A DNA stretch of 64,000 nt, from the NCBI RefSeq assembly GCF_023721415.1, contig NZ_JAMQVC010000002.1:372001-436000 (forward strand), read 5' to 3'. The DNA comes from Galbibacter mesophilus. GTDB lineage: Bacteria > Bacteroidota > Bacteroidia > Flavobacteriales > Flavobacteriaceae. The notes under the pieces are model-generated. The model saw nothing but the letters and a program-made list of their open reading frames with translations. It searched no databases and was not told the origin of the DNA. Shown here one piece after another: positions 19,621-23,727 of the stretch (its first letter is position 1; each line of letters begins with the position of its first letter). A program made the translations under genes and the position numbers.

Positions 19621-20334
19621 TTAAGCGGTAAATAATCCAGATACAAAAAGTAAAGAAGTTACAATAGCAATCCCAAAGCTTAGCAAAGTACCTATAAGAA
19701 TGTATTCGGTAAGCTTTCTATCCTTGGCTTCTGTTAAATCGCTAAATCTAAAAATGGATTTCGCAGCAATTAAAAAGCCTACGCCTTCCCAATGATTGGT
19801 GGCTATAAAGGTGAAAACCAATAAACGCTCCAGCATTCCAATATATTTTCCAGCATTTTCTAAAGAATCCCCAGAGTCCATTTCTGTTTTTGGGGTGTAG
19901 ATGGAAATGAGTGTTTTTATTATAATGGAAGTGGGATGGGTTAAAAATATAATTGCACTTAAAAGTAGCCATGTATTGGAGGGAAATATTTCACTGAAAA
20001 TTATATTTTCAGAAGTCTGCCAAAAGCAAATTGCACCAATTACTAAGATATGTAATAGTTGGTCCAAGAAGAAAAACAGTCTTTTGGTCTTTGGTGTTTG
20101 TAAGGTGAGTTTTGCTGCATCGATAATAAAATGGGTAGCCCCGATGATGAGTGGAATATACCAAAGACTAAAATCCCAAACAAAAAGAAATGCCAATAGC
20201 ACATGAATTAAAACATGTATGTAGAGTTTCCCTGACCTTGCTTTTTTCTCTTCTTTTTCAGCAACCCATTTCTTGGATTGAAAAGTGAAATCTCCCAATA
20301 AATGGGCAAGAAACAATTTTAAAAACAATTCCAT
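19621..20334 (-). CDS. DUF3307 membrane protein
   Basis: A 237-residue integral membrane protein with about six hydrophobic segments. The N-terminal DUF3307 domain shows the family pattern LAHLLGDFTFQSKKWVAEKEEKKARS then HVLIHVLLAFLF and HFIIDAAKL; the His and Asp residues in the membrane are conserved in the family but function is unknown. It is downstream of the SatD-like gene on the same strand, a pairing seen in other Bacteroidota, with a 109-bp gap that carries two perfect palindromes. Confidence 0.88.
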   Translation of the reverse strand: MELFLKLFLAHLLGDFTFQSKKWVAEKEEKKARSGKLYIHVLIHVLLAFLFVWDFSLWYIPLIIGATHFIIDAAKLTLQTPKTKRLFFFLDQLLHILVIGAICFWQTSENIIFSEIFPSNTWLLLSAIIFLTHPTSIIIKTLISIYTPKTEMDSGDSLENAGKYIGMLERLLVFTFIATNHWEGVGFLIAAKSIFRFSDLTEAKDRKLTEYILIGTLLSFGIAIVTSLLFVSGLFTA

Positions 20335-20443: not shown

Positions 20444-21052
20444 TTACAAACTACTTATTTTTTCGCGGTACATAATATCCAATTCCATAATTTCTTCAAA
20501 AGAAGCTCTCTTTAGGCGTTCGCTTACAGCACTTTGTTTAATTCCTATTAAGCTTCCTAATTCCTCTTGAGATAACGTGGGGCTTTCCAAAGATACTTTC
20601 ACAATTTCTGCGGAACTGGCTGTCCAATTATCCATGGCAATTAAAGCTAACTTAAAATACAAGTTTAACTCTTTATTTACTGCGCTATTGTCTGTTTGAA
20701 TGGCTAAATTCGTTTTTAACGGTTTTAGGTTTTCAAATAATTCTCCCGAATTTAAAAACGCACTCCCGTTCGATTCTGAAATTTTCTCACCTTCATGGGT
20801 TTTATCGCCTATACCAATAGACATGCGTACATCTAGTCCTTTTATGCTCTTTATGGTAGCTTTTATTAAAACGGCTGCTGAAAAAGCAAAGTACACATCT
20901 TTGATTTCTACTTGAAAACTGTCCCCACGATATATTTCCCAAAACTTTTGGTTTCCTGAAATACCACTGAATACTTCTTTCAATGGAATCAGCCATTCTT
21001 CAGGATTTTTTTTCCTTGAGTTTATAATATCGCCTGTAATTACACTTGTCAT
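20444..21052 (-). CDS. SatD-family protein with C-terminal HTH
   Basis: A 202-residue protein beginning SVITGDIINSRK, the SatD-family signature. The middle has VYFAFSAAVLIKATIKSIKGLDVRMSIGIGDK, a pattern like nucleotide-cyclase-type folds, and the C-terminus is a helix-turn-helix (LSQEELGSLIGIKQSAVSERLKR, about residues 158-180). It therefore could be a sensor-regulator. It stands upstream of the DUF3307 membrane gene and directly behind a four-site palindrome array at 21073-21176, which suggests autoregulation. The ligand is unknown. Confidence 0.85.
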   Translation of the reverse strand: MTSVITGDIINSRKKNPEEWLIPLKEVFSGISGNQKFWEIYRGDSFQVEIKDVYFAFSAAVLIKATIKSIKGLDVRMSIGIGDKTHEGEKISESNGSAFLNSGELFENLKPLKTNLAIQTDNSAVNKELNLYFKLALIAMDNWTASSAEIVKVSLESPTLSQEELGSLIGIKQSAVSERLKRASFEEIMELDIMYREKISSL

Positions 21053-21072
21053 AGTCTTTTGAAAAACTTATA

Positions 21073-21176
21073 TACCGGCTTATAGCCCGATTTGCAAAAA
21101 TATCGGCTTAAATACCAATATTTATAATTATTGGGTTAATAGCCAATAAAATCAAATATCGGGTTTTAAGGCGATA
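21073..21176. promoter_or_regulatory. Four 20-bp palindromic sites at exact 28-bp steps
   Basis: Sites at 21073-21092 (TACCGG-N8-CCGATT), 21101-21120 (TATCGG-N8-CCAATA), 21129-21148 (TATTGG-N8-CCAATA) and 21157-21176 (TATCGG-N8-GCGATA). Each is 20 bp, each starts 28 bp after the last, and the 8-bp spacers between them differ. GGSTT follows the left half in all four. The array begins 20 bp upstream of the satD-like ATG and overlaps its promoter, so it is probably the operator of the HTH protein. Confidence 0.75.
21095..21102 (-). promoter_or_regulatory. -7 element of the satD-like gene inside the palindrome array
   Basis: TATTTTTG on the minus strand fits TAnnTTTG, lies between the first and second palindromes and 42 bases before the ATG. 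No -33 TTG is seen at ideal spacing; the second site occupies that region. Confidence 0.45.
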
Positions 21177-21206
21177 AAAACAAATTAAAAATAGGATAAG
21201 AGCATC

Positions 21207-21752
21207 TTATAGGTTAATCTTCACATTGTAGCCTTCCAGTTCATGGATAAGTTCGTTTACCGTGTAATCCAATTGATTAGAGTATTCATGGCGTTCTTTG
21301 CGTAATTGGTTCCGTTTTATACTTTTAAAAAAACGTTTCAAATCTTGTTCAGATTCTAGTATGAGTCCGGGCACTTTAACGCTCTTTCCATTATCATCCT
21401 TCGCAACCATGGTAAAATAGGAAGAATTACAGTGTTTCACCGCACCGGTTTGTATATTTTCCGCCTCTACACGAATACCAATAACAATAGATGTATTTCC
21501 CACAAAATTTACGGAAGCTTTCATAGTAACCAGTTCGCCAATTTCTATAGGCTTTAAAAAATCAACCGTATCTACAGAAGCTGTTACACAATACGACCCA
21601 GAATGTTTGGAGGCACAGGCGAACGCAATTTGATCTAAAAGCGATAAAATAAACCCTCCGTGAATTTTTCCACTAAAATTGGAATGGGAGGGAAGCATTA
21701 ATTCAGAAATTTCTACACGTGAGGCACTCACGGGTTTAAGTTTTGGTGTCAT
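21207..21752 (-). CDS. Hotdog-fold acyl-CoA thioesterase
   Basis: A 181-residue thioesterase of the YciA/acyl-CoA hydrolase branch. The hotdog helix and catalytic area read SNFSGKIHGGFILSLLDQIAFACASKHSG, with the conserved HGG and the acidic LLD, followed by VDTVDFLKPIEIGELVTMKASVNFVGNTS. Substrate chain length cannot be told. The C-terminal 45 residues are charged and helical. It is a lone gene upstream of the SatD pair, separated from it by the palindrome array. Confidence 0.92.
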   Translation of the reverse strand: MTPKLKPVSASRVEISELMLPSHSNFSGKIHGGFILSLLDQIAFACASKHSGSYCVTASVDTVDFLKPIEIGELVTMKASVNFVGNTSIVIGIRVEAENIQTGAVKHCNSSYFTMVAKDDNGKSVKVPGLILESEQDLKRFFKSIKRNQLRKERHEYSNQLDYTVNELIHELEGYNVKINL

Positions 21753-21971: not shown

Positions 21972-22508
21972 TTATTTTTCGTTCATTCTGTTAAAAAAAG
22001 GATTGCTCGAGTCATCATTTATCTGATGTCCGTAACCGTATTTTTCGTTTAATTGGTAAAGTCTCAAATATAAATCTACGTAATCTTGGGAAGTCAAAAC
22101 CCAATCGGATATAAGTTTTGCCATTTCATTCATGTCTTCTGCATAAGTCATTCTAGAGTCACTACCTCTTGTTCCATCTGGTTTAAGCGCGACACCTCGA
22201 TTTAAGAAAATCAACTTTTCTTCATGGATAATTTTTCTCTGCTCTGCGAATTCTTTACCTTTTGGCAAATATTTTAACAATAGATTTTGGATTCCGTTGT
22301 AGAACAATGAGTGTTTTTCCTCCGGATTGTCAAATTTCTTGTCAATTAGTTCTTTCAGTTCGTCAATTTCTTTTAATTGACCATCCTCAATATTAATACT
22401 TAACTGTTTGCCTTGTTGTTGTTTTGCCCTTTGAAGTATCTCAAGCTTCTCAATATTTTTCAGTTTTTCTAGCTCTAAATCTTTAGCAGATTTTTTCTTG
22501 TTGTCCAT
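21972..22508 (-). CDS. Unknown partner protein of the HTH-ImmA/IrrE gene
   Basis: A 178-residue soluble protein that I do not recognise. The first 75 residues are strongly charged and predicted helical (KDLELEKLKNIEKLEILQRAKQQQGK), followed by a more globular part with HSLFYNGIQNLLLKYLPKG, GVALKPDGTRGSDSRMTYAEDM and a C-terminal helix SQDYVDLYLRLYQLNEKYGYG. No signal or membrane segment. The ATG is one base after the stop codon of the HTH-protease gene, so the two are co-translated and probably work together, possibly as target, antitoxin or substrate of the protease. Confidence 0.7.
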   Translation of the reverse strand: MDNKKKSAKDLELEKLKNIEKLEILQRAKQQQGKQLSINIEDGQLKEIDELKELIDKKFDNPEEKHSLFYNGIQNLLLKYLPKGKEFAEQRKIIHEEKLIFLNRGVALKPDGTRGSDSRMTYAEDMNEMAKLISDWVLTSQDYVDLYLRLYQLNEKYGYGHQINDDSSNPFFNRMNEK

Positions 22509-22509
22509 A

Positions 22510-23727
22510 TTACTCGACTATTTTATTTAATTCAAATATTTCTTTAATAATTTTCGCTTTTTGTGGGATTGAATCTGTCTCCCAAACTAAAGGAGATAAT
22601 CTCTTAACGGTTTCATCTATTTCTGGAAAATGTTGTCTGTATGCCTTCCAGTAGTTCTTGTTATGATTATAGTACATATCTATCTGAAAAGCACGATAAA
22701 CAAAGCATTTATGAATATTATTCTTTTTTGCAATTTGATTTACCATTAATTCATTATTGATGTGAGGTTTAATAAACCTTAAAAGGTTAGAGTCAAAAAA
22801 GAACTCTTGAGCAAAATCATCTGCGTTCTTCTCGTTTATTAATAACAAATCTGGTTCTCCCGTTAAATGATATCCTTGAGACAAAATACTTTCAAAGTCA
22901 AATAAAACGTGATATAGTTCGTGCAGTAATGCGTACCAGATAGTTGCATAATTCTGATTCAAATCAGTTAGGACTATGCAGGGTTTTCTATTTACAGCAA
23001 AAGTCGCTCCTCTAAACTGAGAAGTAGTTAGTTGTCTTTGAAAACAAACAGTTACTCCAATACTGTACAAAGCTTGACATACTGTTAACAATCCTTTTTC
23101 AATATCTTGAGTGTATGGTTTAATCTTGGGAACTATTTCTTTAAGGTTATTTCGATTATAACTATTTGGGTTTGAGATTCTTTCAAAAATCATATAAGCT
23201 GATGAAATTGAAAAATACCGCATCTTATCAGCGAAATTCCTTTTTGTGGAGCTATAAAGAATCATATTTAATTTTGAAGCATAGTCCTCATATTCTCTTA
23301 TCGATTCAAACCCGAAGAAATCCAATAAGTTTTTCTTGATCTCGGATGAATCAGATTTCGAGTTTATTAAACCAACTTTGCTTAATCTATCGATATCAAA
23401 ATTTTTCTCTATGAATTGAAAATCATTAGAAGTTTCCAGCTTTTTAATTTTATCACTTTGTTGATTTGCAATTAAAAATACTATTAAGTCCTTTAAGTTG
23501 ATGTTTAGAAAATCAGATATTTTCAGTACATTGAATAAGTTAGGATGCTTTATCGAACCATCAAGAATTGGATTAACCGAATTTTTGTCAAGTCCAATTA
23601 AGTTGAAAGCTTGGTTTTCGCTAATGTTTAATTCTTCTATTTTTTTTTCAAAAACTTCACGTGGATTTATAAAATCCTTCGTTCTGAAAGATTCTTGAAG
23701 TAGGTTTGATATTGAAAAGTCATTCAT
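22510..23727 (-). CDS. XRE-type HTH fused to ImmA/IrrE metallopeptidase
   Basis: A 405-residue protein. Residues about 20-85 look like an XRE-type DNA-binding fold (NISENQAFNLIGLDKNSVNPILDG). The centre and C-terminal half is an ImmA/IrrE (DUF955) zinc peptidase domain with HELYH near residue 269 in WYALLHELYHVLF and the downstream acidic helix NEKNADDFAQEFFF that supplies the third ligand. Relatives cleave phage repressors or stress regulators, and related pairs act in toxin-antitoxin and phage defence. Two palindromes flank its promoter. The operon interrupts core genes (thioesterase and rmuC), which suggests acquisition. Confidence 0.85.
   Translation of the reverse strand: MNDFSISNLLQESFRTKDFINPREVFEKKIEELNISENQAFNLIGLDKNSVNPILDGSIKHPNLFNVLKISDFLNINLKDLIVFLIANQQSDKIKKLETSNDFQFIEKNFDIDRLSKVGLINSKSDSSEIKKNLLDFFGFESIREYEDYASKLNMILYSSTKRNFADKMRYFSISSAYMIFERISNPNSYNRNNLKEIVPKIKPYTQDIEKGLLTVCQALYSIGVTVCFQRQLTTSQFRGATFAVNRKPCIVLTDLNQNYATIWYALLHELYHVLFDFESILSQGYHLTGEPDLLLINEKNADDFAQEFFFDSNLLRFIKPHINNELMVNQIAKKNNIHKCFVYRAFQIDMYYNHNKNYWKAYRQHFPEIDETVKRLSPLVWETDSIPQKAKIIKEIFELNKIVE

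Follow-up and report, generated by a model that had tools for sequence, protein, structure and literature searches.

In the window, that is, the whole 64-kb stretch of DNA analyzed here, genes for a SatD-like protein and a DUF3307 protein are preceded by an intergenic region that contains four palindromes and a likely promoter and is bounded by satD and by a thioesterase gene (21207–21752, same strand, upstream). The features are as follows.

19621–20334, minus strand: gene for the DUF3307 protein (237 aa), the first gene after satD on this strand; Pfam DUF3307 (PF11750), 99.7 bits, E 1.6e-28
20444–21052, minus strand: satD-like gene (202 aa); N-domain (about residues 1–140) and C-terminal HTH with the recognition helix at 173–182
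21053–21206, minus strand: intergenic region of 154 bp with array and promoter, from the list of open reading frames
21073–21092, no strand: palindrome 1, TAYYGG-N8-CCRRTA with 1 mismatch, in the chain scoring 13.0 and closest to the satD start
21095–21102, minus strand: likely −7 box TATTTTTG (consensus TAnnTTTG, read by eye), between palindromes 1 and 2
21101–21120, no strand: palindrome 2, TAYYGG-N8-CCRRTA, exact match
21129–21148, no strand: palindrome 3, TAYYGG-N8-CCRRTA, exact match
21157–21176, no strand: palindrome 4, TAYYGG-N8-CCRRTA, 1 mismatch

The product of the satD-like gene (model pLDDT 97.9) matched the Pfam profile of SatD (PF16264) at 24.7 bits (E 2.1e-5; residues 5–185 on positions 4–197 of 211), which is under the gathering score of 29 bits, and is therefore designated SatD-like. 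The DUF3307 protein, which passes the gathering score of its own profile (23 bits), is all-helical by prediction (model pLDDT 92.8), and its residues H11, D15, Q19, H40, H68, D72, D91, Q92, and H95 were invariant or nearly invariant in an alignment of 43 sequences. This set of conserved His, Asp, and Gln residues is reminiscent of a metal site in a predicted membrane protein; over residues 2–105, there is a match to phrog_2470, a family of phage membrane proteins. Also on the minus strand, a protein encoded at 22510–23727 shows a weak N-terminal HTH match (E 0.015) and an HExxH motif (HELYH), presumably resembling HTH-metallopeptidase regulators; its gene is followed by that of a small protein (21972–22508, minus strand) with weak, sub-threshold Pfam matches only.

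The initial annotation had described four 20-bp palindromes at a constant step with unrelated spacers and a −7-type element between the first two, and all of this was confirmed from the sequence: the palindromes start at 21073, 21101, 21129, and 21157, every step is 28 bp, the 8-bp spacers are unlike each other, and TATTTTTG occupies 21102–21095 of the minus strand, sharing two bases with palindrome 2. No clear −33 box was seen in this promoter at what we take to be the usual distance. Being just downstream of the predicted −7 box, palindrome 1 probably lies over the transcription start. As the gaps within and between the sites are both 8 bp, the direction of the half-sites alternates every 14 bp, so that perfect dyads are also found at a 14-bp offset. 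Lone TAYYGG-N8-CCRRTA sites are frequent by chance (34 in the 64-kb window at 2 mismatches or fewer, against 18 expected). When the whole window was scanned for chains, this array alone reached 6.5 or more, with a best score of 13.0, and the top chain score in 30 simulated 64-kb windows was 7.5. In the whole genome, TATYGG-N8-CCRATA with up to 1 mismatch occurred at 103 places, as compared with 36 for the reversed control; this roughly threefold excess of single sites counts against the autoregulator explanation favored below and is read neither as a sign of a wider regulon nor as a sign that there is none. Among the matches listed, five perfect single sites lie outside the array, one of which, with an AT-rich centre, is inside a 546-codon open frame (C2:51651). 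The array is real, and its recurrence in relatives is the strongest evidence for it.

SatD-like genes were found in 7/7 genomes of the genus, in 161 of 299 sampled genomes of the family, and in 60 of 196 and 106 of 395 genomes in samples of the order and phylum, respectively. The family and genus searches provided 154 loci (34 given directly and 120 fetched by place), a lower bound drawn from the places listed; the order and phylum searches added 41 further best-scoring loci, and 80 named loci, 40 chosen places from the phylum list, and 4 loci from a pattern search brought the total to 319. Removal of three loci without a usable SatD (L035, L036, and L148) and 24 identical copies left 292, near-identical ones being kept. 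A chain of palindromes above the threshold was present directly upstream of the satD-like gene in 256 of these 292 loci, which are not independent, the 256 weighing as about 64 by similarity. The corresponding numbers for control regions were 0/292 within genes, 1/292 downstream, and 13/1460 for shuffled upstream sequences. Outside the order, the array passed the threshold in 29 of 49 loci. Most arrays consist of 3–5 sites (115, 78, and 37 loci, together 230/256), and the 684 steps between sites were 28 bp in 583 cases, 29 bp in 89, and 27 bp in 12. For the initial 154 loci, a gap of 8 was the most frequent one between perfect 6-bp arms (306 upstream vs 15 in-gene). Sites were scored for TAT..ATA and dyad symmetry regardless of which bases occupy positions 4–6, so that half-sites built otherwise are missed, and TAT..ATA and the dyad owe part of their constancy to this selection. 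The absence of site and spacing from orthologous loci, which the initial annotation had named as grounds for abandoning its proposal, was not what we found. The search that it suggested, for the fixed motif TATYGG-N8-CCRATA, would have missed most of these relatives, in which the geometry is kept but the half-site is not.

Palindromic repeats with a constant step close to a start codon might also be hairpins of a leader RNA, or CRISPR-like or mobile repeats. We regard this as extremely improbable, since mismatches in the variable pairs showed no bias of G-T over A-C (99 vs 127 of 592), which is the expectation for a site in DNA, the spacers are short and nearly constant in length, and the half-sites track the recognition helix of SatD as described below. 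The neighboring gene recurs together with satD: of the 290 loci for which 500 nt or more of downstream sequence was available, 287 encoded a DUF3307-like protein, and its open frame lay on the same strand, starting −100 to +300 nt from the satD stop, in 275 loci. From this position close behind satD, the DUF3307 gene is probably under the same control.

The half-site differs among lineages, with CGG, CGT, CTG, TCC, TAC, TAG, CAC, and others at the variable bases (positions 4–6), while the outer TAT..ATA is 90–98% constant, a value partly demanded by the scorer, and the centre is AT-rich. The best tree of the N-terminal domain (193 rows) calls for at least 79 changes in the consensus half-site and at least 54 in SatD residue 178. 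Among 199 SatD columns, residue 178 ranked at the top for half-site positions 4, 5, and 6 alike, with z values of 6.6, 6.4, and 5.5, respectively, after correction for column entropy, and residue 175 ranked second for position 5; the ranking itself serves as a control, because shared ancestry inflates the other columns too. Q178 is associated with TATTAG or TATAAG (49/60), E178 with TATC.. (48/51), K178 with TATTCC (38/48), R178 with TATTAC (37/44), and N174-A175 combined with S, T, M, N, or G at 178 with TATCAC or TATCAT (19/21). Unlike helices may go with like sites, as in QSAVSQR and QGNISQG, both with TATTAG (QSAVSQR equally with TATAAG), and in QNTVSER and QSNISEG, both with TATC... Exceptions to the code include E178 with TATTGA, TATTGG, or TATAGA and K178 with TATTAC (3 cases beside 38 with TATTCC). 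In the window's genus, CGT was the commonest half-site for N174 proteins (4/4), and CGG, TGG, or TGA for S174-A175 proteins (3/3).

Among pairs of 30–60% identity in the N-domain, those with the same residue 178 differed at 0.77–0.98 of the 3 bases, as compared with 2.15–2.17 for other pairs. When half-sites were predicted for 193 rows with training rows less than 50% identical in the N-domain, residues 174, 175, and 178 together gave 85% of bases and 57% of complete triplets for the 75 of 193 rows covered, and residue 178 alone gave 64% of bases and 23% of triplets (183 rows), against baselines of 33% of bases with no residue and 44% with the best of 200 other columns. On well-supported branches of the tree, the three rules examined had 6, 5, and 3 independent pairs, too few for significance, of which 4.1, 4.4, and 1.7 went in the expected direction and 0.0, 0.0, and 0.1 in the opposite one (median p 0.125, 0.125, and 0.5); the control column 180 disagreed, with 0.1 pairs the same way and 0.9 the opposite way, of 4. 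These covariations between helix and half-site strongly support the proposal of the initial annotation that binding is due to the HTH protein SatD, and SatD very probably binds its own array. The array could instead be read by another DNA-binding protein, for which the product of 22510–23727 with its weak HTH match (E 0.015) is a candidate encoded nearby. The half-site, however, covaries best with the recognition helix of SatD, in a comparison that spanned the 199 SatD columns only, and another reader appears very unlikely to us.

The step also follows the protein. SatD-like proteins with S177 have 28-bp steps in 581 of 642 cases, and those with N177 or H177 have 29-bp steps in 40 of 42; likewise, a gap at residues 157–160, before the HTH, accompanies a majority step of 29 bp in 16 of 17 loci, as compared with 15 of 239 others. 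Much of this association may be shared ancestry, and it fits a step set by contacts between SatD molecules. Cooperativity would be likelier for the same reasons, namely, that the step is fixed and that it changes with the protein. If positions 4–6 are the reading core, its two copies within a site are separated by 11 bp, close to one turn of the helix and typical of HTH dimers, and those across the spacer by 17 bp; the 20-bp palindrome, rather than the dyad shifted by 14 bp, is therefore the likely dimer site. A step of 28 bp corresponds to 2.67 turns, and three units to eight turns, so that adjacent dimers would face different sides of straight DNA, which speaks against the explanation favored here. 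The distance between the −33 and −7 boxes was considered as the origin of the 28 bp. The element TTTG is enriched at phases 20–22 of the unit (62, 34, and 129 of 940 units vs 6.6 expected), and it occurs in at least two spacers in 69 of 256 loci only. Because TTTG is repeated in this minority of arrays only and the 29-bp arrays follow a protein subfamily, the step more likely comes from SatD than from the promoter.

The 36 loci below the threshold consist partly of loci with other half-sites (L297 and L146 at 28 bp; L313 and L317 at 29 bp) and partly of loci where no array was detected, such as six loci of the family f32 (L309, L310, L312, and L314–L316), L076, L179, L235, L294, L318, and others. 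One genome, G696, holds two satD-like genes: L297 has long perfect palindromes (AAATCAAC..GTTGATTT) in 28-bp steps, and L298 a weaker related pair. In L022, L009, L014, L019, and L023, palindromes of the TATTCC and TATCAC types are mixed in one array, with three of each in unbroken 28-bp steps in L022, a 27-bp step included in L019 and L023, and one weak TATCAC-like site only in L009. Such mixed arrays are perhaps operators caught during a change of specificity, or are served by two readers. Pairs of SatD-like and DUF3307 genes also occur on plasmids (L321–L324), including those of Vibrio and Salinivibrio, genera outside Bacteroidota. A conjugative plasmid of Vibrio lentus (L322) carries three TTAGCC-N6-GGCTAA palindromes with centres at −97, −69, and −41, i.e., 28 bp apart; a Segatella copri plasmid (L321) has perfect dyads only 31 bp apart, along with a weaker pair at a distance of 28 bp that has a gap of 10 bp; and no perfect dyads were found at the two Salinivibrio plasmid copies (L323 and L324). 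A Pseudoalteromonas locus (L325) has a single palindrome, its gene start not being established.

The −7 consensus of flavobacterial promoters is TAnnTTTG, according to the accessible text of PMC9723704. This motif was sought in the last 110 nt of the 256 array loci and was present in 159 and absent from 97. Its position was under or between the sites in 112 of these loci and beyond the array in 39 (20–26 nt past its end in 36 of these); in 3 others it followed the array by no more than 12 nt, and in 5 it was upstream. Since the array covers the predicted −7 box in most of these loci (112 of 159), repression, and hence autorepression by SatD, is the likelier effect of the array, as judged from the sequence. 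For the 36 boxes 20–26 nt past the array, whose last site abuts the −33 region, one might rather envisage SatD as an activator in a positive loop, its dimers recruiting RNA polymerase from upstream of the promoter. Against such activation, which we consider unlikely overall, a protein bound at the 112 loci and in the window would block the polymerase, and 50 of the 256 arrays reach to within 5 nt of the start codon.

Fold searches with the structure model predicted a palm fold of the nucleotide cyclase/GGDEF/Cas10 type for the N-domain of SatD. The matches include a cUMP synthase and a uridylate cyclase, and 3onq, which we take to be the structure of a PucR-like regulator, was low in the Foldseek list at rank 49; no GGDEF or cyclase Pfam match was obtained up to E 1 for the protein of the window. 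D8 and D44 are invariant in 92 sequences, and their placement in the topology, judged without residue-level superposition, suits metal-binding acids, being where we presume the two metal-binding acidic residues of the palm to lie. The invariance of these two predicted active-site residues points to a nucleotide-linked switch, which the predicted fold of the N-domain suggests as well. A more daring proposal is that the array serves as a scaffold, on which SatD molecules at 28-bp steps would pair their cyclase-fold domains into enzyme dimers, silencing the operon and switching the synthesis of a nucleotide messenger on or off; the target of this messenger would be the DUF3307 membrane protein. 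In class III cyclases, an active site is shared by two subunits. If the proposal were true, the cell would count SatD by a messenger made on the protein's own promoter; we consider it improbable.

Collectively, the finding is real and reaches far beyond the window, and the main interpretation of the initial annotation, that SatD is the binder of the array, stands. In the explanation that we favor and consider probable as a whole, the array would be the operator of an autoregulator, with one SatD dimer on each 20-bp palindrome; half-site positions 4–6 would be read by the recognition helix (S174, A175, and E178 in the window), and the outer TAT/ATA by something constant. Neighboring dimers would be held at the fixed 28-bp step dictated by SatD, which would favor contacts between them; once filled, the array of the window would lie over the −7 box and the adjoining region, and both satD and the DUF3307 gene would be turned off. 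Presumably, the N-terminal domain binds or turns over a nucleotide, loosening or tightening the grip on DNA. A function is hereby proposed for two uncharacterized families found together in Bacteroidota as well as on some plasmids, and their likely regulator is named. Moreover, each array locus holds both a reader (the helix) and a text (the array), and the set therefore amounts to a natural experiment with dozens of specificity changes under nearly fixed geometry, from which a recognition code is legible.

Among known systems, streptococcal SatD (PF16264) is similar in that the profile match, though weak, is nearly full-length and includes the HTH; satD of streptococci is tied to acid tolerance in the accessible text of PMC11323703, where DUF3307 and operators are unmentioned. 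The superfamily of GGDEF, class III cyclase, GTP cyclohydrolase III, and Cas10 palm domains shares the predicted fold of the N-domain, whereas the SatD-like protein is fused to an HTH and lacks a GGDEF or cyclase profile match, its fold being predicted only. Pycsar-type defence consists of a cyclase plus a membrane effector, comparable to the cyclase-fold protein beside a membrane protein found here. In PADLOC, however, DUF3307 had no match and SatD a weak one only (E 0.0064, over the HTH), and, unlike Pycsar, the SatD-like gene is single-copy in nearly every family genome with a match. PucR-type regulators such as MabR, described in the abstract text of PMC11617747 as having a GGDEF-like domain and an HTH, likewise join a GGDEF-fold domain to a DNA-binding domain and would provide a precedent for combining an HTH with the fold of a second-messenger synthase; no PucR profile was detected in the Pfam scan of the window protein, and an operator array of this kind was not found in that abstract text. 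The accessible part of PMC4886424 treats DUF2652, another cyclase-like family, and does not name SatD. The correlation of regulator residues with their sites has been used for the MerR family in Prot-DNA-Korr (PMC5045206, from its accessible text), the same kind of inference as ours, which concerns another family and takes protein and site from one locus.

Among the literature matches listed, which left most subscription journals outside, none described the array or the fold of SatD, and none presented SatD as a DNA-binding protein. Beyond the initial annotation, the new elements are the diversified recognition code, the step that follows the protein, and the cyclase-type predicted fold of the regulator. 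Autoregulatory tandem operators are found with HTH repressors such as phage repressors and the antitoxins of toxin-antitoxin systems. The SatD arrays resemble these in placing several palindromes over the promoter of the repressor's own gene, with a second gene probably co-controlled, and differ from them in having mostly 3–5 sites at one constant step, a half-site that has changed many times, and a regulator domain with a predicted nucleotide-cyclase fold.
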